DNA of 43,519 nt, from positions 1-43,519 of the forward strand of contig JAENYQ010000022.1 of NCBI GenBank assembly GCA_016841675.1, read 5' to 3'. Made by a program: the position numbers and the translations under genes. Within the stretch, counting starts at the first letter, position 1; each line of letters begins with the position of its first letter. This document shows positions 17,612 to 38,700 of this stretch, piece by piece. The stretch is from Desulfotomaculum sp. (lineage in GTDB: Bacteria; Bacillota; Desulfotomaculia; Desulfotomaculales; Desulfallaceae). The notes under the pieces were generated by a model that saw nothing but the letters and a program-made list of their open reading frames with translations, was not told the DNA's origin and searched no databases.

Positions 17612-17673
17612 AAAAAAAGGGGACAGGCTACTTTTTTCGATTTTTGAAAAAAGTAGCCTGTCCCCTTTTTTTT
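17611..17673. repeat. R4-type palindrome acting as terminator after the tRNA
   Basis: Arms of 28 bases (17611-17638 and 17646-17673) are perfectly complementary: eight A, then GGGGACAGGCTAC, six T and C. The run of eight T at the right end makes it a terminator on the plus strand, and the A run does the same on the minus strand. Nothing else is seen between here and 17760. Confidence 0.8.
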
Positions 17674-25070: not shown

Positions 25071-25075
25071 ACAAG

Positions 25076-25159
25076 GGGGTCAGGCCTGTCGTAACTTCCT
25101 AACTGCGAAATTGCTATATGAAGATAATGCAGTTAGGAAGTTACGACAGGCCTGACCCC
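25076..25159. repeat. R4 palindrome, copy a (after disA)
   Basis: A perfect 31-base stem (25076-25106 with 25129-25159) around a 22-base loop. The arm begins GGGGTCAGGCCTGTCGTAAC. The same arm occurs at 28315 and 28881; the loops differ. It may also terminate disA transcription. Confidence 0.85.
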
Positions 25160-25238
25160 TTTACCTCTTCAAAGTTATATTTTGCAATAAAGGAAAACAA
25201 ACTTTAATGTCGAATACCTATAAGTATAACCCTACTAA

Positions 25239-25637
25239 TCAAGCCATATTAAATAGCCCCAGAGTTCGCAGCGATTTTTGCTCTTTAATCAAAATGTCAT
25301 AAATATTCAAGTCCAGTAAGTTGCATAGGGCGGCCAGGTAAAAAAGCGCGTGCCCAATCTCCTGTTCTACTGTGTCGCGACAGCTATCGCACAGCTTGCC
25401 CTCAAGGTGGGATTCCAGGAGTTTTCTAAGTTCTTCCAGTGGTACCTCGGAAGGGATTTTCTTTTTTTGGGCGGTAATTTTAACGCACCCGCACCCGGTT
25501 ACTGATTTAATTACGGCCCGGTTCATTCTGGCGTTGGATTCTTGTGATTTGGCCAGCAGATCGAGGATGCTGCGATTGTACAGCAGCAGTTCAGAAACCG
25601 TGTTTTGGAATTCGTCATACACCATATCTTTTAGCAA
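25239..25637 (-). CDS. Uncharacterised protein with MazG-like C-terminal segment
   Basis: I prefer a TTG start at 25637, eight bases after AAGGAG, giving 132 residues; an ATG at 25667 would lie at the transcription start. The N-terminal half is helical, followed by TGCGCVKI with two cysteines and later LCDSCRDTVEQEIG with a CxxC. The C-terminal EIGHALFYLAALCNLLDLNI resembles the last helices of MazG-type pyrophosphohydrolases, but the full acidic metal-binding set is not evident. I do not assign a function. It has its own promoter, divergent from the CarD-like gene. Confidence 0.75.
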   Translation of the reverse strand: MLKDMVYDEFQNTVSELLLYNRSILDLLAKSQESNARMNRAVIKSVTGCGCVKITAQKKKIPSEVPLEELRKLLESHLEGKLCDSCRDTVEQEIGHALFYLAALCNLLDLNIYDILIKEQKSLRTLGLFNMA

Positions 25638-25673
25638 CGGTTTCACTCCTTGGTTATATTCGCTCATGCAGTT

Positions 25674-25703
25674 ATTATAACGGCCTGTTGCTTGGACTGT
25701 CAA
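25674..25703 (-). promoter_or_regulatory. Promoter of the minus-strand 132-residue gene
   Basis: On the minus strand, TTGACA (25703-25698), an 18-base spacer and TATAAT (25679-25674) give a full-consensus promoter about 37 bases before the TTG start. Confidence 0.75.
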
Positions 25704-25727
25704 ACTAGGCAATATTAAAAAATATTA

Positions 25728-25795
25728 TTGACACGTGCAATACGCTATGCTACAATATACTATTTCTTGACAGAGAATAGATTTTGTGATAAAGT
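25728..25795 (+). promoter_or_regulatory. Two tandem promoters for the CarD-like gene
   Basis: First: TTGACA (25728-25733), 17 bases, TACAAT (25751-25756). Second: TTGACA (25767-25772), 17 bases, TAAAGT (25790-25795). Both face the CarD-like gene at 25826 and are back to back with the minus-strand promoter at 25674-25703. Confidence 0.7.
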
Positions 25796-25825
25796 ATTTC
25801 TGTACTAAGTAAGGAGGGCCGGGAA

Positions 25826-26302
25826 TTGTTCAATATCGGAGATAAGGTTGTTTATCCCATGCACGGTGCTGGGGTTATCGAGTCCATCGAGGAAAAAGAA
25901 GTTCTCGGAGAGACTAAAAAGTATTACGTGCTTAGATTACCGGTTGGCGATATGAAAGTTATGATACCCGTCACTAACTATAAAGATGTGGGTCTGCGCC
26001 AGGTAATTGACGGAGATGGGGTATCGCGGGTTTTCCGGATTCTGAGCGAACAATGCACAAGCATGTCGTCCAATTGGAACAGACGCTATCGGGCCAACCT
26101 GGAAAAGATTAAAAGCGGCAACGTTTACGAGGTGGCCGAAGTGGTAAGGAATCTGATTACCAGGGACAAGGAAAAAGGTCTTTCCTCGGGGGAAAGAAAA
26201 ATGTTGGAAAGCGCCAGGCAGATATTAATCAGTGAACTGGTGCTGGCTACAGAGATGAACGAGGATAAAACAAAATCCATGATTGAAAGAGCTTTTGCCT
26301 AA
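25826..26302 (+). CDS. CarD/CdnL-TRCF family transcription factor
   Basis: Proteins of this family bind the RNA polymerase beta subunit and stabilise open promoter complexes, often at rRNA promoters. The 158-residue protein begins with the Tudor-like RNAP-interaction domain (FNIGDKVVYPMHGAGVIESI) and ends with a helical DNA-binding domain (about 75-158). Length matches clostridial and mycobacterial CarD. The start is TTG 25826 after AAGGAGGG. It has two promoters and a strong terminator, so it is a single-gene unit. Confidence 0.93.
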   Translation: MFNIGDKVVYPMHGAGVIESIEEKEVLGETKKYYVLRLPVGDMKVMIPVTNYKDVGLRQVIDGDGVSRVFRILSEQCTSMSSNWNRRYRANLEKIKSGNVYEVAEVVRNLITRDKEKGLSSGERKMLESARQILISELVLATEMNEDKTKSMIERAFA

Positions 26303-26330
26303 TACGCCAGTGAAAAACTGGCGTATTTTT
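26301..26330 (+). terminator. Intrinsic terminator of the CarD-like gene
   Basis: AATACGCCAGT (26301-26311), loop GAAAA, ACTGGCGTATT (26317-26327), running into TTTTT (26326-26330). It overlaps the TAA stop of the gene. Confidence 0.85.
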
Positions 26331-26500
26331 ATTTGTCGGAAAAAATATCCAAAAAGAGTTGAAACAAACTTTTAAATCAGCCATAATAGAATAAAATACC
26401 GGTGTAAATAATAATTACTGTAATATGTGCTAATTTCACTGAGCTGCCGGGTTGTACCTGTCTCCAAGTTTAATTAACACCACACAAAGGAGGTGAACAA

Positions 26501-27652
26501 ATGGCCAGAAAGATTATATTTGTTTTTATGGTTCTTTTATTTTCGGCAACCGGTTTATACTCCGGGCTGTATCTGGTCAGCCAAGACATTATACCCCTGC
26601 CTGAAACCATACCCCAGTTGGGCTCCGGTTTTATCGGCCTGACAACCCTTGCCGGTCTGGTGCTGGGGATATTGTTAACCCCGTGGCTGATTCGATTTTC
26701 TTTGTGGTTAACCGCACTGCTGGAGCAAATGCTCAGCAAGACGCCGGTCCAAGACCTGGTTATGGGATCGGTTGGTTTGATTGTCGGACTCATAATAGCT
26801 AATTTACTGGGCTCTGTTTTTACGTTTATGGGTATTATCGGTAAGGTAATCTGGCTCGCCTTTACTTTACTACTGGGCTACCTCGGCATGACTATCAGCG
26901 TTAAGAAAAGAGAGGAAATAGCCGGATTTATCGGTAGTGTTACCCGCTTAGGTGGAGGAAAGGATAAAGCTGCTCCAGAAGGCAAGGGCAGTTCCCAAAA
27001 ACTGCTTGATACCAGTGTCATCATTGACGGGCGTATTGCCGATTTGTGTGCCAGCGGGTTTATCGAAGGCACTTTGGTGGTGCCCGGATTTGTGTTGGAG
27101 GAACTGCGGCACATTGCCGATTCATCGGACTTGCTTAAGCGCAACCGGGGGCGGCGGGGGTTGGATATTTTAAACCACCTGCGCAAAGAATCCACGGTGA
27201 AAGTGCAAATTAACGACAATACCAAAGGTCTGGATGAAAAAGCCGAGGTGGACACCAAGCTGGTCAAGCTGGCCCAAAAACTGGGCGCCAAAATTCTCAC
27301 CAACGATTTTAACCTGAACAAAGTCGCTGAACTGCACGGTGTTATAGTGCTGAACATCAACGAGCTGGCTAACGCAGTAAAGCCCATTGTACTGCCGGGT
27401 GAGGAAATGGTGGTCCAGGTGGTCAAAGAAGGCAAAGAGTCCGGTCAGGGTGTTGCTTACCTGGATGATGGCACCATGATCGTGGTGGACGGCGGCAAAC
27501 GCTATATGAACCAAACCATATCCGTGCTGGTAACCAGCGTGCTGCAAACAGCGGCGGGGCGGATGATTTTTGCCAAGCCCAAGTCAGCCGACCGGCGCGG
27601 TGATTCACAGCCGGGCGCGCAGCGCTACAAAGAGGTGAACGTGCTTGGGTAG
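26501..27652 (+). CDS. yacL: Membrane PIN/TRAM domain protein (YacL family)
   Basis: The 383-residue protein has four hydrophobic helices (about 4-24, 45-62, 88-108 and 115-133), then a PIN nuclease-like domain starting LLDTSVIIDGRIADL (168-182), and a C-terminal TRAM RNA-binding segment (VYQ-type region with QGVAYLDDGTMIVVDGG). The PIN acidic residues are present, so membrane-anchored RNase activity is plausible, but the family's substrate is not established. The ribosome site AAAGGAGGTG is strong. ispD overlaps its last eight bases, so translation is probably coupled. Confidence 0.92.
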   Translation: MARKIIFVFMVLLFSATGLYSGLYLVSQDIIPLPETIPQLGSGFIGLTTLAGLVLGILLTPWLIRFSLWLTALLEQMLSKTPVQDLVMGSVGLIVGLIIANLLGSVFTFMGIIGKVIWLAFTLLLGYLGMTISVKKREEIAGFIGSVTRLGGGKDKAAPEGKGSSQKLLDTSVIIDGRIADLCASGFIEGTLVVPGFVLEELRHIADSSDLLKRNRGRRGLDILNHLRKESTVKVQINDNTKGLDEKAEVDTKLVKLAQKLGAKILTNDFNLNKVAELHGVIVLNINELANAVKPIVLPGEEMVVQVVKEGKESGQGVAYLDDGTMIVVDGGKRYMNQTISVLVTSVLQTAAGRMIFAKPKSADRRGDSQPGAQRYKEVNVLG

Positions 27653-28334
27653 CACCTGGGCCGTGGTACCTGCTGCCGGCAGGAGCACCCGGATGGGCGG
27701 TGAGGTAAATAAGCAACTGCTCCACCTGGCAGGCCGTCCGGTGATAGAATATTCTCTGCAAGCGCTGCTGGCGGTCCCCGTGGCCGGGGTCATCCTGGTG
27801 ACGGCACCGGGCGAGGAGCAGTGTTTTGCCCGCATCCTGGGCGACCTGGTACCGGGTAATCAAATTATTATAGTCGCCGGTGGAGACTCCCGCCGGGATT
27901 CAGTAAGGCAGGGCCTTAAGGCCCTGCCTGCTGGTGTTAGTCTGGTGGTGGTGCACGACGGCGCCCGGCCTTTGGTTAAGCCGGGTTCGATTAGGGCGGC
28001 CATCGAAGAAGCGCGACGTTGGGGGGCCTCCACCCTGGCGGTGCCGGTTAAAGACACTGTGAAATTGGCCGGCCCGGATAATCTGGTGCGGGAAACCCTA
28101 CCCCGGGAACTACTCTGGCAAGTGCAGACCCCCCAGGTTTTCAACCTGGATATCTTACTGGAAGCCCACCGGGCAGCCGCGCAAGACGCCTTTGAAAGCA
28201 CCGACGACGCCTCCCTGGTGGAGCGCCTGGGCCGCCCCGTCAAACTGGTACCCGGCGACTACACCAACATCAAAATCACCACCCCCGACGACATCCTCCT
28301 GGCCGAAAAAATTAGGGGGTCAGGCCTGTCGTAA
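27645..28334 (+). CDS. ispD: 2-C-methyl-D-erythritol 4-phosphate cytidylyltransferase, C-terminus written by a repeat
   Basis: IspD forms CDP-methylerythritol in the non-mevalonate isoprenoid pathway. The 229-residue protein has the nucleotide loop VPAAGRSTRMGGEVNKQLL at the N-terminus, VVVHDGARPLV and QTPQVFN in the middle, and the family end DYTNIKITTPDDILLAEKI. The start is TTG 27645, seven bases after AGAGGTG. The final residues RGSGLS and the TAA stop lie inside an R4 palindrome (28315-28400), so the native 3' end was replaced. The catalytic part is complete, so activity is expected. Confidence 0.95.
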   Translation: MGSTWAVVPAAGRSTRMGGEVNKQLLHLAGRPVIEYSLQALLAVPVAGVILVTAPGEEQCFARILGDLVPGNQIIIVAGGDSRRDSVRQGLKALPAGVSLVVVHDGARPLVKPGSIRAAIEEARRWGASTLAVPVKDTVKLAGPDNLVRETLPRELLWQVQTPQVFNLDILLEAHRAAAQDAFESTDDASLVERLGRPVKLVPGDYTNIKITTPDDILLAEKIRGSGLS

Positions 28335-28400
28335 CTTCCTAACTGCAATATGAATATATAATAATATTGCAGTTAGGAAGTTACGACAGGCCTGACCCCC
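28315..28400. repeat. R4 palindrome, copy b (over the ispD stop)
   Basis: A perfect 37-base stem (28315-28351 with 28364-28400) around a 12-base AT loop. The left arm encodes Gly-Ser-Gly-Leu-Ser and the TAA that end ispD. The right arm stops a few bases before the ispF ribosome site. Confidence 0.9.
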
Positions 28401-28416
28401 TCTTGAGGTGCTTACT

Positions 28417-28899
28417 TTGCGGATTGGCATTGGTTATGACGTACATAGACTAGTGGCAGGCAGGTCCCTGGTGTTGGGTGGAGTAACGGTTCCCTATCAC
28501 CTGGGGCTGGATGGCCATTCCGATGCCGACGTACTGGTGCACGCCATTATGGACGCCCTGCTGGGGGCGGCCGGGGCGGGCGATATCGGCATGCATTTTC
28601 CGGATACCGACCCCCGTTACCGGGGCATTTCCAGCCTGCTGCTGCTGCGCCATGTGATAGAACACCTGGACAAGCTGGGCTGGTCAGTGGGCAACGTGGA
28701 CGCCGTAATCGTGGCCCAAGCCCCCAAATTAGCCCGGTACAGGGAGCAGATGCAACAAAACTTAGCCCGGGAGATGCGGGTGCCCCCCAACCAGGTTGGC
28801 ATCAAAGCCACCACCACCGAGGGGCTGGGCTTTACCGGCCGGGGCGAAGGCATCGCCGCCCAAGCAGTCACCCTAATTAGGGGGTCAGGCCTGTCGTAA
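28417..28899 (+). CDS. ispF: 2-C-methyl-D-erythritol 2,4-cyclodiphosphate synthase, C-terminus written by a repeat
   Basis: IspF closes the cyclic diphosphate in the non-mevalonate pathway, downstream of IspD. I chose TTG 28417, which gives the family N-terminus RIGIGYDVHRL and follows TGAGGTG by six bases; an in-frame GTG at 28408 overlaps that site. The 160-residue protein keeps the zinc ligands in GYDVH and GHSDADVLVHA, and the CDP-binding KATTTEGLGFTGRGEGIAAQAV. Its last residues RGSGLS and stop lie inside an R4 palindrome, exactly as in ispD. Confidence 0.95.
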   Translation: MRIGIGYDVHRLVAGRSLVLGGVTVPYHLGLDGHSDADVLVHAIMDALLGAAGAGDIGMHFPDTDPRYRGISSLLLLRHVIEHLDKLGWSVGNVDAVIVAQAPKLARYREQMQQNLAREMRVPPNQVGIKATTTEGLGFTGRGEGIAAQAVTLIRGSGLS

Positions 28900-28964
28900 C
28901 TTCCTAACTGCAATATCTTTATATATTAATTTCGCAGTTAGGAAGTTACGACAGGCCTGACCCC
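28881..28964. repeat. R4 palindrome, copy c (over the ispF stop)
   Basis: A perfect 31-base stem (28881-28911 with 28934-28964). The arms are identical to copies a and b; the loop differs. Its left arm encodes the end of ispF, and ATTAGGGGGTCAGG matches the ispD junction base for base. Confidence 0.9.
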
Positions 28965-28969
28965 GTGTC

Positions 28970-28999
28970 TTGCTACCTTGCAAAGGGCAATGCTATAAT
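28970..28999 (+). promoter_or_regulatory. Promoter of gltX
   Basis: TTGCTA (28970-28975), an 18-base spacer and the extended -10 TGCTATAAT ending at 28999, starting just past the R4 palindrome. The TTG start of gltX is 43 bases further on. Confidence 0.65.
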
Positions 29000-29041
29000 A
29001 GAGTGTCAAAAAATAGATGTTTTTACGAGGAGAGAACGGAT

Positions 29042-30502
29042 TTGAGCGAGATTAAAGTTAGATTTGCACCCAGCCCCACCGGGCCTTTACATATCGGCGG
29101 CGCGCGCTCTGCGCTGTTTAATTGGTTGTTTGCCCGCCGTTACAACGGCAAAGTTGTCGTTCGTATTGAGGATACTGACCTGGAACGTTCCTCCCGGGAG
29201 TCCGAGTCAAACATCCTATCATCCCTGCGCTGGCTGGGGCTTGATTGGGATGAGGGCATTTCCGTGGGCGGGCCCAACGGCCCCTACCGCCAGACCGAGA
29301 GACTGGAACTGTACAAACAGTACACCGAAGAGCTGCTTGCAAGCGGTTGGGTGTACCGATGTTACTGCAGTGAGGAAGAATTGGCCACCCAGCGGGAGGC
29401 CCAAATGGCTGCCGGCGAGATGGTCGGCTACACTGGCAAGTGCCGCGACCTGTTTGAGGAAGACTGTAAGCGGTTGGAAGGTGAAGGCCGCAGGCCGGTG
29501 CTGCGTTTCAGGGTGCCCCAGGGTAAAGTGCTTACCATTCGTGACCAGGTGCGCGGTGACGTGAGCTTTGACTGCAATGGTATCGGTGATTTCATTATCG
29601 TTAAATCGGACGGCATCCCTACATATAATTTTGCCGTGGTGGTAGACGATTACACCATGGGCATAACCCACGTTGTCCGGGCCGAGGAACACCTTTCCAA
29701 TACGCCCTTGCAAGTACTGTTATTCGAGGCGATGGGCTGGCCCGTGCCGGAATTTGCCCATATATCACTGATTTTGGGTCAAGACCGGTCCAAAATGAGC
29801 AAACGCCATGGTGCCACCTCCATCCAGCAGTACCGCGACATGGGTTATCTGCCGGAAGCGATGATCAATTTCCTGGCCCTGTTGGGCTGGTCTACAGGCA
29901 CCGAGGACGAGGTATTCACCTTGGACCAGGTTAAAGAAAGTTTTTCTCTGGAGCGGGTGGCGAAAAGTCCGGCGGTATTCGACTTGGAGAAATTAAACTG
30001 GCTAAACGGCTATTATATAAGACACAGCCCGGTGGAAAAGATTGCCGAACTGGCTGTCCCGTACCTGCAGCAGGCCGGGTACCTGCCCGAAATAGTCGAC
30101 GACAGGCTGATGGAGAAGGTACGCTTGGTAACGGTCGCCGTGCGTGAATATCTGGAGTACATGGCCCAGATTGTTGACTACGCCGGAGTGTTCTTCGATG
30201 ACCCCGCCTATGATGACCCGGAAGCCAAAGAAGTGCTGTCTCAAGAGCAGGTGCCCGTTGTGTTTGGCGCACTGCGGGATAAGTTGACCAATGCCGGTAC
30301 CCTGGACGAGGCCGGGGTCAAGGCAATGCTGAAGAAGTTGCCCAAAGAACTGGGCCTGGGCGGTAAGAATGTTTACCAACCCCTGCGGGTGGGACTGACC
30401 GGTAAAACCAAGGGCCCGGAATTGTACCACCTGCTGCCCGCACTAGGTGGACCAAAGGCGACTGAACGGCTGGAAAGGGCACTGGCACAAGCTAGAGGCT
30501 AG
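29042..30502 (+). CDS. gltX: Glutamate-tRNA ligase
   Basis: GltX charges tRNA-Glu with glutamate, and in organisms lacking GlnRS also supplies the precursor for Gln-tRNA. The start is TTG 29042, nine bases after AGGAG; a longer open frame to 28970 runs back into the promoter. The 486-residue class I enzyme has the HIGH motif as HIGG at 17-20 ([17 protein letters not shown]) and KMSKRHG at 251-257. The C-terminal anticodon-binding helical domain is complete. It has its own promoter and sits between ispF and cysE, as in Bacillus. Confidence 0.95.
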
Positions 30503-30569
30503 AGGGTGGGTCACTATGCCGCAAGAGCGTGGCACCATCTGTACATGAAATTTGTTTTCAGACAGTATC

Positions 30570-30783
30570 ATGTCATTTTGAACGCAGCAAAGAATTTTTC
30601 TTTAAAATTCTTTGCTGCGTTCAAAATGACATTCACCTAGTATATTTTTAGATAGCCATAGGATCCACAAATCGTAGGGGCAGCCCTCACGGGTGCCCCT
30701 ACGACTACGATTGGGGATATTGTTGGTGGATATAAATTAATCGTCACAAATAGTTTAGATCCTTCGCTGCGCTCAGGATGACA
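30570..30783. repeat. R1 repeats and a small hairpin between gltX and cysE
   Basis: No gene is seen from 30503 to 30962. At 30571-30631 a perfect inverted repeat (GTCATTTTGAACGCAGC and its complement) forms a long stem. At about 30675-30707, GTAGGGGCAGCCC and GGGTGCCCCTAC pair. At about 30757-30782 there is an R1 right arm, AGATCCTTCGCTGCGCTCAG. The remainder to the cysE ribosome site shows nothing recognisable. Confidence 0.75.
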
Positions 30784-30962
30784 GCCCTACCCAAAAGTCT
30801 ATTTTCAGGGTGGTGCTTCACAAAGAGCCTGCTGACCACAACGAGTAGAATTACAGTAGCGACCGGAGTGATACCATCAGAGCGATACCACCAGAGCGCC
30901 AGATACGATAACAATCAAAACTATTTTCTTTAACTTGTGCTTTTTACGATGGAGGGATTGAC

Positions 30963-31697
30963 TTGTTATTTGGTCGACTCCGGAAAGAAATAAAAGCTGT
31001 ATTTGAACGGGACCCGGCCGCCAGGTCGGTGCTGGAAGTACTGCTCTGCTACCCCGGCCTGCATGCGATACTGCTGCACCGGGTGGCTCATTTTTTTTAT
31101 CGTTACCAGCTCTTTCTAATTGCCCGGCTGATTTCCCAATTTGCCCGGGCTGTGACCCATATTGAAATCCACCCTGGTGCCCGATTGGGCGAGGGGTTGT
31201 TTATCGACCACGGCGCCGGGGTGGTTATCGGCGAAACCACTGAAGTAGGCAACAACGTCACCATTTACCAGGGGGTGACCCTGGGGGGTACCGGTAAGGA
31301 GAAGGGCAAACGCCACCCCACCATCGGAGATAACGTGGTCATCAGCGCCGGGGCCAAGATACTGGGTTCATTCACCGTGGGTAATAACAGCAAAGTTGGC
31401 GCGGGCTCAGTGGTGCTTAAACCCGTTCCGCCCAACAGTACAGTGGTGGGTGTGCCCGGCAAGGTAATTATCCGGGACGGTGAAAAGGTGGGACACCCCG
31501 GGAATGTCTTTATGATCGATTTACGGCACGATCTGATGCCCGACCCGGTTACCGAAGCGATGTACTGCATGCAAATGAACATTGATATACTGGAAAAACG
31601 CGTGCTGGACCTGGAAAAGAGACTGCGGGATAGCTCTACCGGCGGGGAGCAAGACATGGCCCGCTGCCTGGACAGCCCGGATCTAAACGATAAATAG
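30963..31697 (+). CDS. cysE: Serine O-acetyltransferase
   Basis: CysE acetylates serine to O-acetylserine, the carbon acceptor for sulfide in cysteine synthesis. The 244-residue protein has the N-terminal helical part and the left-handed beta-helix of hexapeptide repeats ([18 protein letters not shown] through VVGVPGKVI). The catalytic histidines lie in IDHGAG and in the segment around GKRHPTIGD. The tail from about 185 onward is longer than in short CysE forms and partly coiled ([19 protein letters not shown]). The start is TTG 30963 after GGAGGG. Its product supports the cysteine that cysS, next, charges onto tRNA. Confidence 0.95.
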
Positions 31698-31727
31698 TAT
31701 GCCGCTAATGCGTCACTATCAGTGCAT

Positions 31728-31920
31728 GAAAAACAAACGTACGGAGGCGATCCGGTGGTATCAGGAAAGAGCGGTGCACCTGGCTGCGTTGAATCGTGCA
31801 GCAACGCAAAAACAAGTAATAACCTGCTGCATACTCAACTTGCGGTGCTTTTGCGTTAAAGCTGCACGTTTTAATCAGGGCATGCGCCACAGGCGCTTGC
31901 CCCGTCATAGCCCCGAATTC
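31728..31920. repeat. 193-base dispersed element R5, copy B (before cysS)
   Basis: This second copy of the element at 15476 has the same limits and both stem-loops. The long stem CGTGCAGCAACGCAAAA with TTTTGCGTTAAAGCTGCACG is complete. The small stem-loop GCGCC-ACA-GGCGC differs from copy A only in the loop (GCA there). The middle loop region, 31817-31850, has diverged. Confidence 0.8.
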
Positions 31921-31950
31921 GTGGCATCAGAAAGATGAAAATCTGCTTGG

Positions 31951-32022
31951 ATTGTCATTCCGAACAAAGTGAGGAATCTAGATCTTTAAGATCCTTCGCT
32001 GCGCTCAGGATGACAAAACCCA
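31951..32022. repeat. R1 repeat before cysS
   Basis: GTCATTCCGAACAAAGTGAG and GATCCTTCGCTGCGCTCAGG flank a short centre. It is the nearest relative of the copy at 13518: both continue into ATGACAAAACCC and a TTTATTTTCC stretch. Confidence 0.75.
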
Positions 32023-32078
32023 AAGTTTATTTTCCAGGTAACATAGATCAGATAAGCACTTCTTAAGGGGGATGTCAA

Positions 32079-33530
32079 ATGCACATATACAACACCAAAA
32101 CCGGTAAGAAAGAGTCGTTAATACCCCGGGAGCCCGGGAAGGTGACCATGTATGTCTGCGGTCCCACCACCTATAACTATATCCACCTGGGCAACGCCCG
32201 CCCCGTCGTATTTTTTGACACCGTGCGCCGATATCTTAAATACAAAGGTTATGAAGTGCTGTATGTGCAGAATTTTACCGACGTAGACGACAAAATTATC
32301 AACCGGGCCCGGGAAGAAAAGGATGACCCCATAGTCCTGGCGGCACGCTATATAGAAGAATATTTTCGGGATGCCGACGCCCTGAACGTAATGCGGGCCG
32401 ACATTCACCCCCGGGTATCGGAACACATGACGGAAATAATTGACATGGTGCGCACCCTGGTGGAAAAAGGCTTCGCCTACGCCGTTGACGGGGATGTTTA
32501 CTACGATGTGTACAAGTTTGAGGGGTACGGCAAACTTTCCGGCCGCACCCTGGAAGACATGCGGGCCGGAGCACGGGTTGATGTAGATGAACGCAAGCAT
32601 CATCCCATGGACTTTGCGCTGTGGAAATCGGCCAAACCCGGCGAACCCGCCTGGGCTAGCCCCTGGGGCCAAGGCCGGCCGGGTTGGCATATTGAATGCT
32701 CGGCCATGTCGCTTAAATACCTGGGCACCAATTTTGATATCCATGGCGGTGGCTATGACCTGATTTTCCCCCACCACGAAAACGAAACCGCCCAGTCCGA
32801 GGCTGCTACCGGCGAGCCCTTTGTCCGCTATTGGATGCACAACGGCTTTATCACGATCAACCAGGAAAAAATGAGCAAATCCCTGGGTAACTTCTTCCTG
32901 GTGCGGGAAATTCTCGAAAAGTTCAAGCCCGAAGTTGTACGATTTTACCTGCTTAGTACCCACTACCGCAGTCCGTTAGACTTTGATGACGAAAAGCTGA
33001 CTGCCGCCGGCAAAGGCCTGGAACGGCTGAAAACCAGCCTACGTCTGCTGGATGAGGCCCTGGCGGGCCGTGAGCCGGGTGACGCCATCCCCGATGCCGG
33101 TTTGGCCGTACGATTGGATGAACTGCGCGTTCAATTTGAGACCGCCATGGATGACGATTTCAACACCGCCTTAGCCACCGGAATTATCTTCGATTTAGCG
33201 CGGGATATTAACAGCTTTTTGCATAGCGCAAGCGCAAACACCCCCGCAGGTGTTGCTGCGCTACAGAAAGCAAAGGAATTATTTTACGCCTTTAATGGTG
33301 TTTTAGGGGTCTTAAAGACCGACAAAAAGGGCAAAATCTTGCTGGATGAACCAGATGGGGAAGATGATTCCCTGGTTGAAAAGCTGCTGCAGGTAATTAT
33401 CCAAATGCGACAGAATGCTCGGAAAAACAAGGACTGGGCCGCTGCCGACGGCATCCGCGATCAGCTCAAGGAGCTCGGTATTGTGCTGGAAGATACCCAT
33501 TCCGGGGTGCGTTGGAAGAAGCAGAGGTAG
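32079..33530 (+). CDS. cysS: Cysteine-tRNA ligase
   Basis: CysS charges tRNA-Cys using a zinc ion to select cysteine. The 483-residue class I enzyme has Cys27 of the zinc site in [17 protein letters not shown], which also contains the HIGH-type motif (HLGN), and KMSKS at 264-268. The zinc-ligand segments WHIECSAM and HHENE are intact. The anticodon-binding helical domain follows. The ribosome site AAGGGGG is nine bases upstream. Elements R5 and R1 fill the gap from cysE. Confidence 0.96.
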
Positions 33531-33534
33531 TATA

Positions 33535-33690
33535 TTAGGAGTCAGGAGTCAGAATTCAGGAGTCAGAATAAAAAAACGGTAAGGCACTTAAGAGTTATAA
33601 GCATGATATCATTTGTCTTGTCGGGGATTGCTGCCCTATATTGCCTGAACTCATTCTGACTACTGAATCCTGACTACTGAATACTGAATT
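33535..33690. repeat. R2 repeats flanking the cysS-mrnC gap
   Basis: TAGGAGTCAGGAGTCAGAAT twice in tandem on the left (33536-33569) and the complementary CATTCTGACTACTGAATCC and CTGACTACTGAATACTGAA on the right (33652-33690) face each other across about 85 bases. This is the same layout as at 42375-42515. Confidence 0.75.
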
Positions 33691-33705
33691 CAACAGAGGT
33701 ATTTA

Positions 33706-34116
33706 ATGTTCGGACTCACTGGAAAAATTACTAACCCGATAGAACTGCCATCGTTGGTACTGGCTTATATCGGTGATGCGGTGTACGAGCTGGCAGTTCG
33801 TGAATATCTGGTCAACTGCGGCCTGGTCAACGTGAACAAGCTGCATCGGGAAGCTGTGCGCCACGTGCGTGCTTCCACCCAGGCCCGTATCTACCACGCC
33901 TTAGCTGGGCGTCTCACCGAAGCGGAACAGGCGGTCATCCGGCGCGGACGCAACGCCAAGTCGGGCCACAGCCCACGGTGTAACAGTATTATCGAATACC
34001 GGGAAAGCACAGGCTTTGAGAGCTTGGTGGGTTATCTCTATTTAAAGCAGGAATGGAACCGTCTAGAGGAAATTATCACCATGGCCCGGCAGGTTATCGA
34101 AGAAGAACTTAAATAA
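33706..34116 (+). CDS. mrnC: Mini-ribonuclease 3
   Basis: Mini-III is a dimeric RNase III-type nuclease without a dsRNA-binding domain; in Bacillus it matures 23S rRNA. The 136-residue protein has the catalytic signature AYIGDAVYELAVREYL (20-35, with Asp24) and the second acidic cluster near the C-terminus in GFESLVGYLYL. Length and position between cysS and thyX/rlmB match the family. The upstream gap is R2 repeat sequence and the ribosome site (CAGAGGTAT) is modest. Confidence 0.94.
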   Translation: MFGLTGKITNPIELPSLVLAYIGDAVYELAVREYLVNCGLVNVNKLHREAVRHVRASTQARIYHALAGRLTEAEQAVIRRGRNAKSGHSPRCNSIIEYRESTGFESLVGYLYLKQEWNRLEEIITMARQVIEEELK

Positions 34117-34137
34117 ACCAGCACAAGCGGAGGTATA

Positions 34138-34881
34138 ATGATGGGTAGAACAACCCTGCGGGTGGAACTGCTTCGCCACACGGAAAGCCCCGAAGAACTG
34201 GTAGCCATGGCAGCCAAACTGTGCTATTCAGCGGCTGGCGTTGAAGAATTGCGCCAGGGGGTGTCCGAGCAGGACCAGACCTCATTTGTAAGCAAGCTGA
34301 CCGATATGGGTCACCTATCACCCATCGAGCACGCCAACTTCACCTTTGGCGTTGAAGGAGTATCCAGGAGCCTTTTAGCTCAAATTACCCGGCATCGGAT
34401 TGCCAGCTTTAGCGTTAAGTCCCAGCGCTATGTTGGTGAAGACAGCGGCGTTCAGGATGATGGTGTATTCAATTACATCATCCCCCCGCGCATTGCCGAT
34501 TTGGGACTCCAAGAAGTGCAAGAGTTTACCGAGCAGATGGCGCAAATGCAAAAGTGGTATGATTACTGGCTGAACAAGCTCTCTGTTTACGGAGATGCCG
34601 CCAAAGAGGACGCTCGTTTTGTATTACCCAACGCAGCCGAGACCAAACTGGTGGTCACCATGAACGCCCGGGAACTGCTGCACTTTTTTAACATTCGCTG
34701 CTGCAACCGTGCCCAATGGGAAATACGCGATCTGGCCACCGCAATGCTGCGCCTGGTGCGCAGCGTGTCCCCGGTGCTGTTTAGGGAAGCCGGGCCCCGC
34801 TGCCTGACCACCCCCTGCCCCGAAGGACGGATGTCCTGCGGCAAACAAGCCGAGGTCAGGGAAAAATTCAGGCATATTTAG
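34138..34881 (+). CDS. thyX: Flavin-dependent thymidylate synthase
   Basis: ThyX methylates dUMP to dTMP using methylene-tetrahydrofolate and FAD with NADPH, the alternative to ThyA. The ThyX signature RHRxxSxxxxSxRY is present as RHRIASFSVKSQRY at residues 85-98. The protein is 247 residues, or 246 if the second ATG at 34141 is used; GGAGGT at 34129-34134 suits the second slightly better. The C-terminal CGKQAEVREKF and the RNAWEIRDLA-type helix (RAQWEIRDLA) fit the fold. It lies between mrnC and rlmB. Confidence 0.95.
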   Translation: MMGRTTLRVELLRHTESPEELVAMAAKLCYSAAGVEELRQGVSEQDQTSFVSKLTDMGHLSPIEHANFTFGVEGVSRSLLAQITRHRIASFSVKSQRYVGEDSGVQDDGVFNYIIPPRIADLGLQEVQEFTEQMAQMQKWYDYWLNKLSVYGDAAKEDARFVLPNAAETKLVVTMNARELLHFFNIRCCNRAQWEIRDLATAMLRLVRSVSPVLFREAGPRCLTTPCPEGRMSCGKQAEVREKFRHI

Positions 34882-34921
34882 TTTTGTTAGGGATAATTTA
34901 TGAATAACCCGGGAGAGACAT

Positions 34922-35659
34922 ATGGAAGATATAATAGTCGGCCGCAACCCGGTCTGCGAAGCGCTGCGGGCCGGCAGACCAATCAATAAAATATACCTGG
35001 CCCGGAACCTGAAACCGGCCACGGCGGCTGAAGTTTCCGGCCTGGCCAGGGAAAGCCAGGTGCCGGTGCAGAAGGTGGAAAAACAACTCTTGGACCGCAT
35101 GGCCGAGGGTGCGTTGCACCAGGGAATTGTCGCCAGTGTCTCACCTTATGAGTACGCCGACCTGGACGATATTCTAGCCCAATTAGGCGATCAGGTTCCA
35201 CTGCTGGTTCTGCTGGATGGCATCAATGATCCCCACAACCTGGGAGCCATTATCCGCTCCGCTGATGCTGCCGGCGCCCATGCTGTAGTGATCCCGCGTC
35301 GGCGGGCGGCTTCGGTTACCTCGGTAGTGGCCAGGGCCTCAGCCGGGGCGGTGGAGTTTGTACCCGTCGCCAGGGTGACCAATATTGCGGTTACCATTGA
35401 TATGCTAAAAGAGCGCGGCATCTGGGTGGTCGGAGCCGATCCGGCGGCCGAACAATTGCTGTGGGACGCCCCCATGGACGGCCCGCTGGCCGTGGTGGTG
35501 GGCAGCGAGGACAAGGGTATCAGCAGGCTGATACGGGAAAAATGCGACCTTCTGGTGCGGCTGCCCATGGCGGGGCGGGTAAATTCCCTTAACGTTTCGG
35601 TGGCCGCAGCGTTAGTGCTGTTTGAGACGGCGCGGCAAAAACGCAACAGGTTAAGCTGA
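34922..35659 (+). CDS. rlmB: 23S rRNA (guanosine-2'-O-)-methyltransferase RlmB
   Basis: RlmB methylates the ribose of G2251 in the 23S peptidyl-transferase region. The 245-residue SPOUT-class protein has the N-terminal L30e-like RNA-binding part starting IIVGRNPVCEALRAG, then the knotted domain with LDGINDPHNLGAIIRSADAAGA, GSEDKGISRL and the closing NSLNVSVAAALVLFE. All three SPOUT motifs are in place. yacP starts two bases after the stop region, so the two are cotranscribed. Confidence 0.95.
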   Translation: MEDIIVGRNPVCEALRAGRPINKIYLARNLKPATAAEVSGLARESQVPVQKVEKQLLDRMAEGALHQGIVASVSPYEYADLDDILAQLGDQVPLLVLLDGINDPHNLGAIIRSADAAGAHAVVIPRRRAASVTSVVARASAGAVEFVPVARVTNIAVTIDMLKERGIWVVGADPAAEQLLWDAPMDGPLAVVVGSEDKGISRLIREKCDLLVRLPMAGRVNSLNVSVAAALVLFETARQKRNRLS

Positions 35660-35661
35660 AG

Positions 35662-36177
35662 ATGAGTGAATATATTGTAGTTGACGGCTACAATGTGTTA
35701 TACTCATGGCCTGAATTGGCCAAGTTGAAGGAAAAGGGCCTGGAGCACGCTCGGGACCGGCTGGTGGATATACTGGCCGATTACTCCGGTATCAGCGGCG
35801 ACCGGGTTCTGGTGGTCTTTGACGCCCACCAGGTGAGAGGTTTTAGCAGCACCAGGTATGAAGAGGTAAACGGAGTCCAGGTATTTTATACCAGGGAAGA
35901 GGAAACCGCCGACGCAATGATTGAGCGGTTGGTGGGGGACATGCCCAAGGACGGTTACACCAGGGTGGTGACCTCGGACTGGGATGAGCAGCGAATTATC
36001 TTGGGGCGAGGCGCGTACCGCATGACCCCCGGGGAGCTGTACCAACTGGTGCAGCGGGCTAAACAGGAAGGTCAGGAATCGTTTGTGCGCAAAAAACCCA
36101 CCGAAGGTTATCTGGAAAACCGGCTGTCCGATAATATTCGCCAAATGTTTGAACAATGGAGAAGGAAGCGGGACTAG
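35662..36177 (+). CDS. yacP: NYN-domain ribosome-associated RNase (YacP/Rae1)
   Basis: The Bacillus relative Rae1 is an endonuclease that cuts mRNA in the ribosomal A site. The 171-residue protein shows the NYN/PIN-like fold: VDGYNVLYSWPEL at the N-terminus with the first acidic residue, VVFDAHQVRG, and TADAMIERLV with VVTSDWDEQ carrying the later acidic residues. The basic C-terminal tail WRRKRD may aid ribosome contact. It directly follows rlmB and precedes sigH, as in Bacillus. Confidence 0.92.
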   Translation: MSEYIVVDGYNVLYSWPELAKLKEKGLEHARDRLVDILADYSGISGDRVLVVFDAHQVRGFSSTRYEEVNGVQVFYTREEETADAMIERLVGDMPKDGYTRVVTSDWDEQRIILGRGAYRMTPGELYQLVQRAKQEGQESFVRKKPTEGYLENRLSDNIRQMFEQWRRKRD

Positions 36178-36209
36178 GCAACCCCTGCCATTTTGAGCAT
36201 TATTTTAGC

Positions 36210-36238
36210 TTGACGAGCTATAGGGGGGCAGGTATAAT
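36210..36238 (+). promoter_or_regulatory. Promoter of sigH
   Basis: TTGACG (36210-36215), a 17-base spacer and TATAAT (36233-36238). The TTG start codon is about 230 bases downstream, giving an unusually long leader. Confidence 0.7.
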
Positions 36239-36370
36239 ATAGCTTGTAAACATGCTTGTTGACTAACTGATGTTTAATTATTGCATCTGTAACGCTGGTT
36301 TTGGTCCAAGGTGTTAATATATTGACAGACACTGTTGCACTAATTGATTGGCTAAGAAATTATTTTTTTT

Positions 36371-36429
36371 TGCCCCATTGTGCGACTCCGGGGTTTACGC
36401 CCGGTTGGCATTTTCCTACGGTGAGGGCA
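36371..36429 (+). promoter_or_regulatory. Candidate structured RNA in the sigH leader
   Basis: TGCCC (36371-36375) can pair with GGGCA (36425-36429), followed by TTTTTG. Inside, CCGGG (36388-36392) pairs with CCCGG (36400-36404). The layout could be a regulatory stem or an attenuator. It does not match a riboswitch class I know. The rest of the 299-base gap shows only the promoter. Confidence 0.4.
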
Positions 36430-36476
36430 GTTTTTGTTTTCGTTTGCGGGGAAATTCAGGCGGGAGGGATTAGATT

Positions 36477-37121
36477 TTGAATTTAAACGCCCAAAGGGAG
36501 ACGTCCAACCATTTTCAGTTAATGATTGACGAAGAAGTTGTGGAATTTGCCCGCGAAGGCGACGATGTGGCTCTGGAGTACCTAATTAACAAGTATAGAA
36601 ACTTTGTGCGTGCCAAGGCCCGTTCTTATTTTTTGATCGGGGCGGATCGGGAAGATATTATTCAGGAGGGCATGATCGGCCTTTATAAGGCGATTCGTGA
36701 TTTCCGGATGGACAAGTTGTCGTCTTTTAGAGCCTTTGCCGAATTATGTATTACCCGCCAGATTATAACGGCCATCAAAACCGCTACCCGTCAAAAACAT
36801 ATTCCATTGAACTCCTATGTATCGCTCAATAAACCTATCTATGATGAAGACTCCGATCGTACACTGCTGGACGTTATCTCAGGTTCCAAAATTTCCGATC
36901 CCGAGGAGTTAATTATCAGTCGTGAAGAGTTTGACGATATTGAGGAAAAGATGGGCGAAATACTCAGTTCTCTGGAATGGAAAGTACTGATGTCTTATTT
37001 GGAAGGCAAGTCTTACCAGGAGATAGCTGAAGACCTAAAGCGCCACGTCAAGTCAATCGACAACGCGCTGCAGCGAGTTAAACGCAAGCTGGAACGTTAT
37101 CTGGAAAAACGCGAAGCCTAG
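36477..37121 (+). CDS. sigH: RNA polymerase sigma factor SigH (sporulation onset)
   Basis: SigH directs transcription at the start of sporulation and in stationary phase. The 214-residue sigma-70 family protein has region 2 with YLINKYRNFVRAKARSYF and DREDIIQEGMIGLYKAIRDF (about 37-80), and region 4 with the helix-turn-helix GKSYQEIAEDLKRHVKSIDN (about 180-199). The start is TTG 36477, eight bases after GGGAGGG. It follows yacP as in Bacillus. It has its own promoter and a long leader, and faces a Spo0E-like gene across a shared terminator. Confidence 0.95.
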   Translation: MNLNAQRETSNHFQLMIDEEVVEFAREGDDVALEYLINKYRNFVRAKARSYFLIGADREDIIQEGMIGLYKAIRDFRMDKLSSFRAFAELCITRQIITAIKTATRQKHIPLNSYVSLNKPIYDEDSDRTLLDVISGSKISDPEELIISREEFDDIEEKMGEILSSLEWKVLMSYLEGKSYQEIAEDLKRHVKSIDNALQRVKRKLERYLEKREA

Positions 37122-37131
37122 GAGCAAAGCG

Positions 37132-37186
37132 AAATAAGGGGTCAGGCTCTTAAAATAAGTTAAGAGCCTGACCCCTTATTTTTTTT
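37132..37186. repeat. R4-type palindrome d, bidirectional terminator of sigH
   Basis: A perfect 22-base stem (37132-37153 with 37160-37181) with GGGGTCAGGCTCTTAA in the arm and eight T on the plus strand (37179-37186). On the plus strand it ends sigH. On the minus strand its sequence encodes the last residues and stop of the Spo0E-like gene. Confidence 0.85.
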
Positions 37187-37312
37187 ATAATACTCCAATA
37201 TTAGTAAATCCAGTTTCCTGCTCTCCGAGAGCAGTTTTTCTTTTTTACAGGGACAAATAGCGTACAAGCGGCACCGGGACTCTTCAATTTTACGATTGAG
37301 TTCCCTGTTCAT
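37160..37312 (-). CDS. Spo0E-like aspartyl-phosphate phosphatase (50 residues)
   Basis: Spo0E-family proteins dephosphorylate response regulators such as Spo0A and so delay sporulation. The small frame begins MNRELNRKIEESRCRL and contains LLSESRKLDLLILEYYKK, matching the family pattern of a first helix, a loop and S-x-x-x-LD-x-LI-x-x-Y. GAAGGGT lies eight bases before the ATG at 37312. The last residues, NKGSGS, and the TAA come from the R4 palindrome shared with the sigH terminator. The intervening IxxLR region has a CPC insertion-like segment (AICPCKKEK), so loop details differ from typical members. Tail-to-tail pairing with sigH fits a sporulation role. Confidence 0.75.
   Translation of the reverse strand: MNRELNRKIEESRCRLYAICPCKKEKLLSESRKLDLLILEYYKKNKGSGS
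37218..37246 (+). terminator. Second plus-strand terminator past sigH
   Basis: CTGCTCT (37218-37224), loop CCG, AGAGCAG (37228-37234), then TTTTTCTTTTTT. It lies inside the antisense Spo0E-like gene and would stop any read-through from sigH. Confidence 0.65.
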
Positions 37313-37389
37313 AAAATCATACCCTTCAATATATTTCCATGGTAGGAATTGGATATCTTGTGTCTAATTATATTAAGTAACCTTTTTAC

Positions 37390-37418
37390 ATTGTATGCCT
37401 ATTGCGGAAATTTGACAA
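37390..37418 (-). promoter_or_regulatory. Promoter of the Spo0E-like gene
   Basis: On the minus strand, TTGTCA (37418-37413), a 17-base spacer and TACAAT (37395-37390), about 75 bases before the ATG. Confidence 0.6.
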
Positions 37419-37487
37419 AACCGGTGACGGCGAAAAAAATAAATATATCGTTCCAACTCTAACTGTAACTTACTTAAACAGAAAGTT

Positions 37488-37555
37488 TCTGCTATTTGCA
37501 GATTGATTGGGCCTATATTTTATTCTATACTGGAAATGCGTCTGCTAATTGCAGA
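37488..37555 (+). promoter_or_regulatory. XRE-regulator promoter flanked by two palindromic operators
   Basis: TCTGCTATTTGCAGA (37488-37502) and TCTGCTAATTGCAGA (37541-37555) are near-identical palindromes. Between them lie TTGATT (37503-37508), a 17-base spacer and TATACT (37526-37531). The first operator abuts the -35 box and the second covers the start region. This is a classic self-repression layout for the XRE protein encoded next. Confidence 0.75.
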
Positions 37556-37570
37556 CAAGGAGGCTTTGAA

Positions 37571-37933
37571 ATGGATTCTTTTCCCACCAAACTGAAGCTA
37601 TTACGGGAAGAGAAAAGAATAACCCTGGAGAGAGTGGCGGATGAGCTGGCTATTTCTAAATCATTGTTATGGGATTTAGAGCAGGGGAGGCGCAGAGTGC
37701 ATGGTGACTTACTGCGTAAAATCGCACAGTTTTTTGATGTTTCATCAGATTACCTGCTTGGTCTTTCCAAACACCGGGCTAGAAATGTAATTGGTGCTGA
37801 TCCTGATCTGGTCGACTTAATGCGCCGTGTTGAGGGGCTTTCACCCCGTGGAAAAGACCAGTTGACCCGGCTTTTGGAATGGGTTAGCGAAGTTGACGAA
37901 AGGGAAAAAAAATTGGGGTCAAGCCCTGCATAA
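37571..37933 (+). CDS. XRE-family transcriptional regulator, C-terminus written by a repeat
   Basis: The 120-residue protein starts at ATG 37571, seven bases after AAGGAGG; a longer open frame to 37496 runs through the promoter. The XRE helix-turn-helix spans about 6-62 (LKLLREEKRITLERVADEL, then SLLWDLEQGRRR and FFDVSSDYLLGLS). A short helical tail (about 80-113) could support dimerisation. The last residues GSSPA and the stop are encoded by an R4-type palindrome. Paired operators around its promoter suggest it represses itself. Targets are unknown; its position beside sigH and the Spo0E-like gene hints at a stationary-phase role. Confidence 0.88.
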   Translation: MDSFPTKLKLLREEKRITLERVADELAISKSLLWDLEQGRRRVHGDLLRKIAQFFDVSSDYLLGLSKHRARNVIGADPDLVDLMRRVEGLSPRGKDQLTRLLEWVSEVDEREKKLGSSPA

Positions 37934-37966
37934 CAATTGCTATGCAGTTATGCAGGGCTTGACCCC
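37915..37966. repeat. R4-type palindrome e (over the XRE gene stop)
   Basis: A perfect 20-base stem (37915-37934 with 37947-37966) with GGGGTCAAGCCCTGCATAAC as left arm. It encodes the final Gly-Ser-Ser-Pro-Ala and stop of the XRE gene. A further GACCCC follows at 37969. Confidence 0.85.
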
Positions 37967-38052
37967 TTGACCCCTTCCCATTGCCAGTTCTTTCTAGCCT
38001 ACAGGTGTTGACATCTACCTGTATATATCATATAATTGTTTTTGCCGCTATT

Positions 38053-38128
38053 GCCGGCGTAGCTCAATTGGCAGAGCAGCTGATTTGTAATCAGCAGGTT
38101 GCGGGTTCGAGTCCCATCGCCGGCTCCA
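38053..38128 (+). tRNA. tRNA-Thr(UGU)
   Basis: A 76-base cloverleaf with acceptor GCCGGCG/CGCCGGC, anticodon arm GCTGA-TTTGTAA-TCAGC (UGU) and encoded CCA. The T-stem reads GCGGG against CCCAT, leaving a C-A mismatch where related genes have GTGGG. Confidence 0.9.
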
Positions 38129-38181
38129 ACAAGCGATCCGGCTTAAGCCGGGTATAACTTATAGATAGTATTTTTCATTGT

Positions 38182-38270
<89 letters not shown>

Positions 38271-38273
38271 AAT

Positions 38274-38349
<76 letters not shown>

Positions 38350-38363
38350 ATCTCGAAGTTTGA

Positions 38364-38408
38364 AATTCGAAGTTCGAAGTTCGAATAAAGAACTTCGAAC
38401 TTCGAATT
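38364..38408. repeat. TTCGAAGTTCGAA inverted repeat inside the tRNA cluster
   Basis: A perfect 19-base stem (38364-38382 with 38390-38408) made of TTCGAAG units, between the tRNA-Thr(GGU) and tRNA-Met genes. Processing or termination could be affected here. Confidence 0.8.
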
Positions 38409-38444
38409 TTAAATAAGAAAAATGGTATTTCGAAAATCGAATAT

Positions 38445-38521
38445 GGCGGCGTAGCTCAGATGGCTAGAGCATGCGGTTCATACCCGCAGGGTCCGGGGTT
38501 CAAATCCCTGCGCCGCTACCA
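38445..38521 (+). tRNA. tRNA-Met(CAU), elongator type
   Basis: A 77-base cloverleaf with acceptor GGCGGCG/CGCCGCT, anticodon arm TGCGG-TTCATAC-CCGCA (CAU), T-arm CGGGG-TTCAAAT-CCCTG and encoded CCA. The paired first base and the D-arm mark an elongator rather than an initiator. Confidence 0.92.
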
Positions 38522-38525
38522 TTAG

Positions 38526-38548
38526 AACCAGCCCAAGGGCTGGTTTTT
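38526..38548 (+). terminator. Terminator of the tRNA cluster
   Basis: AACCAGCCC (38526-38534), loop AA, GGGCTGGTT (38537-38545), with TTTTT (38544-38548). Confidence 0.8.
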
Positions 38549-38566
38549 ATTATTGTTCAAAAGTAT

Positions 38567-38700
38567 ACCCCAAAGGGGACAGGCTGCTTTTTTCGGTTTT
38601 TGAAAATGCATGTCCCCTTTGGGGTTTTCCAGTTATCCTAAACGTTAGCAGAGGAGTGGGGTCTAAAGAAAGATTCTTCACTTCGTTCAGAATGACAATC
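38567..38700. repeat. R4-type palindrome f and R1 fragment before tuf
   Basis: Outer arms ACCCCAAAGGGGACA (38567-38581) and its complement (38611-38625) enclose GGCTGCTTTTTTCGG, a decayed R4-type core. At about 38667-38698 there is an R1 right arm (AGATTCTTCACTTCGTTCAG). From 38700 to 38962 the gap is AT-rich and must hold the tuf promoter, but I see no clear -35/-10 pair; TTGCTCATAAGCAA is a small hairpin just before the tuf ribosome site. Confidence 0.7.

Follow-up and report, generated by a model that had tools for sequence, protein, structure and literature searches.

Palindromic repeats resembling TIRYT-type mobile elements crowd gene ends and supply short C-terminal tails in a Desulfotomaculum genome

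The window, a stretch of 43,519 nucleotides, is contig 63 among the 162 contigs that make up a 3.84-Mb draft genome of Desulfotomaculum sp. (G000). It contains five palindromes built on GGGGTCA(G/A)GC, at positions 25076-25159, 28316-28399, 28881-28964, 37138-37175 and 37915-37966. With one mismatch at most, GGGGTCAGGC matched the window 17 times compared with 3.76 matches expected, and none of 100 shuffles reached 17. The first three palindromes are 84 bp long and belong to subfamily B (see below). The one at 25076-25159 lies 5 nt 3' of the stop codon of a gene at 24009-25070. The other two lie at the 3' ends of ispD (27645-28334, plus strand; Pfam IspD, 6.6e-69) and ispF (28408-28899, plus strand; Pfam YgbB, 3.9e-69), whose stop codons fall within them. 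The 38-bp palindrome at 37138-37175 separates two convergent genes. On its plus side, a sigma-factor-like gene (36477-37121), which we take to be sigH, stops 16 nt 5' of it; this gene has 94-98% identical matches in 14 of 15 relatives and a match of only 33% in G003. On the minus strand, a Spo0E-like ORF (37160-37312) ends in the right arm of the same palindrome. Its match to Pfam SpoOE-like (E = 2e-4, 21.7 bits) was below the cut-off of 23 bits, and similar ORFs were found at the corresponding place in G002, G004 and G005. Finally, an XRE/HTH regulator gene (37571-37933, plus strand; Pfam HTH_31, 4.4e-10) has its stop codon inside the 52-bp palindrome at 37915-37966, an GGGGTCAAGC variant.

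The original prediction stated that these four genes end within a palindrome and read the motif as GGG TCA RGC, from either strand. The codons agree with it in four of four cases, the Spo0E-like ORF being on the minus strand and the other three genes on the plus strand. Tails are given here as the residues before the stop codon. The last codons of ispD are ATT AGG GGG TCA GGC CTG TCG TAA (...AEKIR-GSGLS), and the last seven codons and stop of ispF (...QAVTLIR-GSGLS) are identical to them. The Spo0E-like ORF ends with AAT AAG GGG TCA GGC TCT TAA (GSGS), and the XRE gene ends with TTG GGG TCA AGC CCT GCA TAA (GSSPA). Residues 6-223 of 229 in IspD match positions 3-218 of 221 in the Pfam IspD profile, and residues 4-157 of 163 in IspF match positions 1-154 of 155 in the YgbB profile. 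The four cases are not fully independent, because the ispD and ispF palindromes have their first 36 nt in common. In addition, the context ATTAG-GGGG of these two elements places TAG directly 5' of the element in one frame, so that frame is barred from running in.

The five palindromes were predicted to fold as near-perfect hairpins, with energies of -70.6, -63.5, -31.2, -41.2 and -64.5 kcal/mol; the first value is that of the ispD palindrome (z -17), and -31.2 kcal/mol is that of positions 37138-37185. The palindrome at 37138-37175 has a T tract on its plus side, and positions 37133-37180 give a full match to an intrinsic terminator on the plus strand. A terminator had been expected to follow each tail. 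The hairpins are very strong, but among 85 gene-facing elements only 22 were followed by TTTT within 10 nt (background, 383 of 5,156 windows), and the expectation is borne out only in part. The hairpins may act as terminators or as translation brakes. A search of positions 24900-38700 against Rfam at the gathering score returned four tRNAs and no structured-RNA family match for the palindromes. The possibility that the flanks are halves of a split native terminator was rejected; the 6-nt flank complementarity was 2.20, compared with 2.02 after shuffling (SD 0.12, n = 87), with no clear excess.

The motif GGGGTCARGC occurs at 144 sites in G000, compared with 18 for a reversed-pattern control. 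Among these sites, 134 are GGGGTCAG and fit GGGGWSAS, the consensus reported for the terminal inverted repeats (TIRs) of TIRYT transposases (PMC3733652; PMC6006769); the other 10, including the XRE element, are GGGGTCAA and miss the final letter. This test is partly circular, because the sites were chosen by that motif. They form 94 units, consisting of 50 two-armed palindromes of 24-86 bp and 44 single arms, some of which are mere 10-mers within genes. The main subfamilies are A (…TCTTAACTTATTAACTTATT), B (…CTGTCGTAACT…) and C (…CCTGCATAACTGCATAAC). A TAA starts at position 14 of the arm in A and at position 17 in B and C, in the same frame. The loops vary among copies, and a B-type 20-mer was present in 3 of the 60 genomes searched, G000 counted.

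A copy containing a transposase gene was found at locus L047 of G000, a 956-bp unit in which two A-type ends, identical at 30/30 positions, enclose a Y1_Tnp gene whose frame is open. Seventeen Y1 matches were obtained, and 14 of these loci were examined. Inverted ends agreed at 30/30 positions in L047, 21/30 in L044, 18/30 in L040 (ends GGGGACA) and 13/30 in L041 (ends mixed); ends on both sides were absent at the other 10. The transposase of L233 in G004 matched Bac_DnaA_C with an E value of 3.7e-6 and 27.3 bits, below the cut-off of 31.5; this comparison of the DnaA-type C-terminal helix-turn-helix covered 171 residues of the L047 protein. Since the tag fits GGGGWSAS and L047 has identical ends around Y1_Tnp, the palindromes look like non-autonomous, REP-like repeats of the TIR type belonging to the TIRYT (IS200-like tyrosine transposase) family. 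The short palindromes are probably mobile. Two loci showed further arrangements. The Y1 transposase gene at L233:7003-7893 is itself capped by an element (...LQ-GSGLS), and L092:2501-2749 contains three GGGGTCAGGC units spaced 119-120 bp apart, beside a run of N.

Placement and frames were counted at the loci around the sites of three genomes: G000, G002 from the same genus and G004 from the same family. The counts cover the 64 site clusters of G000 without exception (2 in the window and 62 in 61 stretches), together with 97 of the 107 sites in G002, 100 of which were listed, and 40 of 40 in G004; 80 named loci stand outside the counts. Genes were called with a codon score of our own, for which G000 loci were the training set and which was used in G002 and G004 as well. 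A crude real-arm filter, which L062 (a 10-mer within a gene) also passed, retained 242 of 284 arms. A gene ran into 24 of these arms, and in 98 no gene on the same strand ended within 150 nt; many of these 98 are a palindrome's far arm. For the remaining 120, the distance to the stop codon was -1 to 17 nt in 98, 18-39 nt in 3 and at least 40 nt in 19.

The excess at gene ends that the original prediction called for was large. In tandem junctions, 49 of 60 two-armed elements lay at -30 to 17 nt from the 3' end of a gene, compared with 14.8 expected if each was placed uniformly in its own gap and with a maximum of 24 in 20,000 simulations; 9 of the 60 were on the 5' side. When 28 one-armed elements with the GGGG end facing the gene end were added, the count was 72 of 88 (expected, 19.8; simulation maximum, 32), a figure that omits 20 one-armed elements in which GGGG is not turned toward the gene end. 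After subtraction of the element length, convergent gaps were 25 nt or shorter in 14 of 24 cases compared with 5 of 40 control gaps (Fisher's P = 2e-4; control gaps of more than 1500 nt omitted). Divergent junctions were underused, with 6 of 146 elements versus 69 of 600 junctions (P = 0.006). Among the stops preceding an element, 45 of 99 distances were congruent to 2 modulo 3 (P = 0.03; 27/53 in G000, 16/38 in G002 and 2/8 in G004), and thus these stops lean to the same phase as the run-in genes. The idea that the elements merely sit at native terminator sites was discarded; native terminators were found in 61 of 488 genes, with stems starting at a median of 24 nt (quartiles, 12 and 37), unlike the range of -1 to 17 nt, and in 49 cases examined, a terminator 3' of the element was present twice.

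The same genome provided a control in the form of a sister palindrome family, GGGGACAGGC, with 159 sites and a 10-base tag one base off that of the main family. It has its own Y1 gene, at L040, between ends that agree at 18/30 positions. From the 100 sites listed among these 159, 102 arms were analysed, and no gene was found to run into any of them. Their stop distances (n = 42) were spread: up to 17 nt in 9 cases, 18-39 nt in 11 and at least 40 nt in 22. In the main family of G000, 53 of 63 stops were within 17 nt, compared with these 9 of 42 (Fisher's P = 2e-10). Since the sister family has spread stop distances and no run-ins, the hugging of gene ends is a trait of the main family and not of the genome. 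A pure safe-space explanation predicts that GGGGACAGGC elements hug gene ends too, which they do not; a factor specific to the main family, either an insertion preference or a function, is therefore also needed. Members of the sister family are present in the window at 17619-17665 and 38575-38584. The former is a 47-bp palindrome with an A tract on one side and a T tract on the other, directly 3' of a tRNA-like 3' end at about 17560-17611, where ARAGORN made no call. Two tRNA genes also flank a GAAGTTCGAA-type inverted repeat at 38350-38440.

The statistics on tails depend on curation. Automatic calling gave 24 run-in genes, which read GGG-TCA in 14 cases, GGG-GTC in 6 and GGT-CAG in 4. Five entries were removed: L062, which has no element; L086, a 62-codon ORF without a Pfam match (GGT-CAG, tail of 7); L106 on the minus strand, with a weak score of 9.2 (GGG-TCA, tail of 4); L229 on the minus strand at 6576, a suspected spurious ORF (GGG-GTC, tail of 36); and L248, which is the same event as L102. 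Four were added: the Spo0E-like and XRE genes, which have Pfam support but lie below the codon-score cut-off, and the presumed SLH-like protein of L231 and Pgi of L233, whose arms lack the TAA demanded by the filter. The names SLH, PIN and Pgi are our assumptions from the sequences, and the Pgi case may not be an element at all.

In the resulting 23 run-in genes, the frame was GGG-TCA in 15, GGG-GTC in 5 and GGT-CAG in 3 (P = 0.0017 against one third). A bias toward GGG-TCA is thus supported, whereas a single fixed frame, as first proposed, is rejected, 8 of 23 genes using another. The outcome named as contrary to the original prediction, even use of the frames without enrichment at gene ends, did not occur. 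The prediction of a short Gly-Ser tail and a stop fared better: tails were 7 residues or shorter in 21 of 23 genes, compared with 10.7 expected (P = 2.9e-6, with the limit of 7 chosen post hoc). Without the doubtful Pgi and one of the two ispD cases, the count was 19 of 21 (P = 1.1e-5, with the same post hoc limit), and with L086, L106 and L229-minus restored, GGG-TCA was used in 16 of 26 and short tails were found in 23 of 26. The frame in use was the one with the shortest tail in 16 of 23 genes (P = 4e-4). Among the eight genes in other frames, six have tails of 4-7 residues and two have long ones. GVRP ends a CCG-domain protein of G002 and a MoxR-type ATPase and Pgi of G004, GVRLLTY ends a DASS transporter and a shortened activase of G000, and GQALHN ends UvrA of G002 in frame 2, where the arm reads AAC TGA. 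The short-tail rule is broken by PabA of G004, with 19 residues, and by PyrK of G004, which reads through an element inside the protein. In this PyrK-like gene (L240:1948-3039), an GGGGTCAGGC arm lies in frame between domains (GFSR-GQACRNCNNSS...), like a Rickettsia RPE insertion. Matched C-terminal domains were nearly complete before the tail, except in PyrK and in the glycyl-radical-activase-like protein of L090:2487-2984; in the latter, the match extends only to about position 193 of a 293-position profile, and GVRLLTY lies in an A-type half element.

The frame pattern mirrors the stop positions in the arms: when 67 distinct arm starts of 22 nt were read in GGG-TCA, 54 had a stop within 6 codons, compared with 13 and 18 in the other frames. 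We read it as a survival filter on gene-end insertions and not as a designed frame.

Gene ends with and without an element could be compared among relatives. The XRE ortholog in G002 ends EKR-VGTGHC, and the next 110 nt contain no element, whereas the window has EKK-LGSSPA; no element was found at this 3' end in G001, G004 or G005 either. IspD ends LAEKLWDFLF in G003, LAQALLAAGAVK in G005 and LARALLREA in G014 and G015, compared with LAEKIRGSGLS in the window, and IspF ends QAVAIIQKDML in G003 and QAVTLIRGSGLS in the window. The tail thus takes the place of a variable end of broadly similar length. The Spo0E-like ORF of G002 ends AAT TAG, with the G of TAG being the first G of the element; the window has AAT AAG and continues into GSGS.

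At the ispD-ispF junction, an element or its remains was seen by eye in 9 of 16 genomes. The left arm is in the GGG-TCA frame in G000, G001, G002, G004, G008 and G010, with tails outside G000 of GLNPA (decayed, G001), GS followed by a C-type element (G002), GSGLE (G004), GSDLN (G008) and GSGLNQL (G010). Right-arm remains only were seen in G009, G011 and G013, and no element was seen in G003, G005, G006, G007, G012, G014 or G015. We read this junction as a probable single old insertion with turnover, which would make the six frame matches one event; repeated insertion is possible. The ispD and ispF junctions of G002 (L270:2000-2663) have C-type elements beside apparent older remains (GGGGTCATAAG and GGGGTCAGTTTAG) and look like nested or replaced insertions. 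The elements 3' of sigH belong to different subfamilies in G000 and G002 and have a T tract after them in both genomes, and most gene-bearing relatives have an ordinary hairpin with a T run there. UvrA has an element at nearly the same site in G002 and in G004, but the arms and the frames used differ between the two. Several element types occupy the same junctions, and one junction (XRE in G002) is without an element.

The elements were compared with known systems. They resemble TIRtron/TIRYT TIRs in the GGGGWSAS tag, in the inverted copies flanking an IS200-like tyrosine transposase, and in forming dispersed short families with paired inverted units (PMC3733652, PMC6006769). The DnaA-like C-terminal match of the G004 transposase, below cut-off, may be a further likeness. 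Compared with the TIRs as described in sections of these papers, the present elements differ in that one genome holds several subfamilies, in that the palindromes are long and near-perfect, and in their strong placement at gene ends with in-arm stops. GTAG REPs, including REPINs with RAYTs, are similarly close to 3' ends; sections of PMC2817692 and PMC3733652 place most conv-REPs less than 20 bp from both flanking 3' ends and uni-REPs near the 3' end of the upstream ORF. However, the ends here are GGGG and not GTAG. In Coxiella, QMITE1 and QMITE2 overlap gene 3' ends and supply terminal residues, a likeness of description and not of sequence; QMITE2 extends enhC in one strain and the stop is just before the element in another, but the enhC tail is 33 residues long (PMC5896051, in part). 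Rickettsia RPEs insert in frame inside proteins (PMC3733652, in part), as in PyrK of G004, the only such case found here. For GGGGTCAGGC elements in this bacterial group, no report was found in one collection of open-licence papers, which is weak evidence of absence.

Taken together, the sequence-level identity of the elements, their gene-end placement and the excess of short tails lead us to the following explanation, to which we assign a probability of roughly 0.7. The palindromes would be non-autonomous mobile repeats of a TIRYT-like (IS200/IS605-type tyrosine transposase) system with the tag GGGGTCAG. Near a gene end, they would come to lie mostly just 3' of the stop (-1 to 17 nt) or to start just 5' of it. 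In the latter case, translation would enter the arm and halt at the in-arm stop, and since this stop closes the frame, the last few native residues would be swapped for a short tail. Frames without an early stop would produce long tails, and most such insertions would presumably have been lost. Because most arms stop within 6 codons in GGG-TCA, the tails GSGLS, GSGS and GSSPA dominate.

It is also possible, if somewhat unlikely, that the transposase prefers sites next to translation stops, in which case targeting, and not purging, would account for the distance limit and for some of the frame bias. Such a preference would suit the sharp fall beyond 17 nt, the lack of such an edge in the sister family and the excess of distances congruent to 2 modulo 3. 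G004 still has 19 of its 27 arms at gene ends although 19 of its 23 elements are one-armed; a gene runs into 11 of these arms (one case being doubtful), and the other 8 lie no more than 17 nt from a stop. The distances are, however, scattered over -1 to 17 nt with no single cut site, and the flanks vary by genome as judged by eye, G000 subfamily B often being A/T-rich and ending in AG and G004 often having pyrimidines and then CA. The one-armed elements may also hold a diverged second arm. We know of no mechanism by which stop codons are marked in DNA.

The same G004 elements bear on a functional alternative, which we regard as rather doubtful: that elements are kept since a hairpin within about 15 nt of the stop tunes translation or mRNA turnover, as in E. 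coli REPs. Those REPs, a different sequence family in a like position relative to the stop, lower translation when within 15 nt of it, as cited in PMC12306157. The 17-nt edge is near this limit, the folds of -31 to -71 kcal/mol are strong, and an element or remains has been kept at ispD-ispF in the 9 genomes. On the other hand, one-armed elements should not form the hairpin and still lie at gene ends in G004; a long RNA hairpin therefore seems not to be required, and their closeness would favour insertion preference, or decay after insertion, over hairpin function alone. Moreover, of the 4,072 REPs predicted in E. coli by PMC12306157, only 446 lie within 15 nt of a stop.

An extended scenario, speculative and in our view unlikely, is that the insertion of this TIRYT family is directed around translation stops and that the arm stop in the commonest frame makes it a self-capping gene-end parasite, with junctions such as ispD-ispF and sigH-Spo0E long occupied and the element types replaced there. 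That the arm was itself selected as a harmless gene-ending cassette, as originally predicted, seems very unlikely. The 54 of 67 early stops and the TAA in one frame (position 14 or 17) agree with it, but the arms share ancestry, so these are not 54 independent events. Arms with early stops in other frames exist and serve (L225 and L260, both GVRP with TGA or TAA in frame 0), and the sister family shows no frame rule, the numbers out of 64 arms with a stop in the first 8 codons being 8, 19 and 18 for the three frames. Shaping of the element to end reading frames is also superfluous, as the purging of long tails would yield the bias. Chance or an assembly artefact is negligible despite the draft assembly and the close similarity of two of the four window elements, given that G002 and G004 behave similarly, that loops differ among copies and that the simulation and tail statistics are strong (72/88 versus 19.8; P = 2.9e-6).

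On the explanation we prefer, mobile repeats at gene ends whose in-arm stops cap the run-in frames, core enzymes such as IspD, IspF, UvrA and a phosphoglucomutase-type enzyme can take their last residues from repeat DNA, which matters for the annotation of C termini. The crowding of REP-like repeats beside stop codons is a long-standing question, and the tightness of this family near stop codons is the interesting part of it. One genome with two palindrome families, one bound to stops and the other not, offers a natural contrast between insertion targeting and selection.
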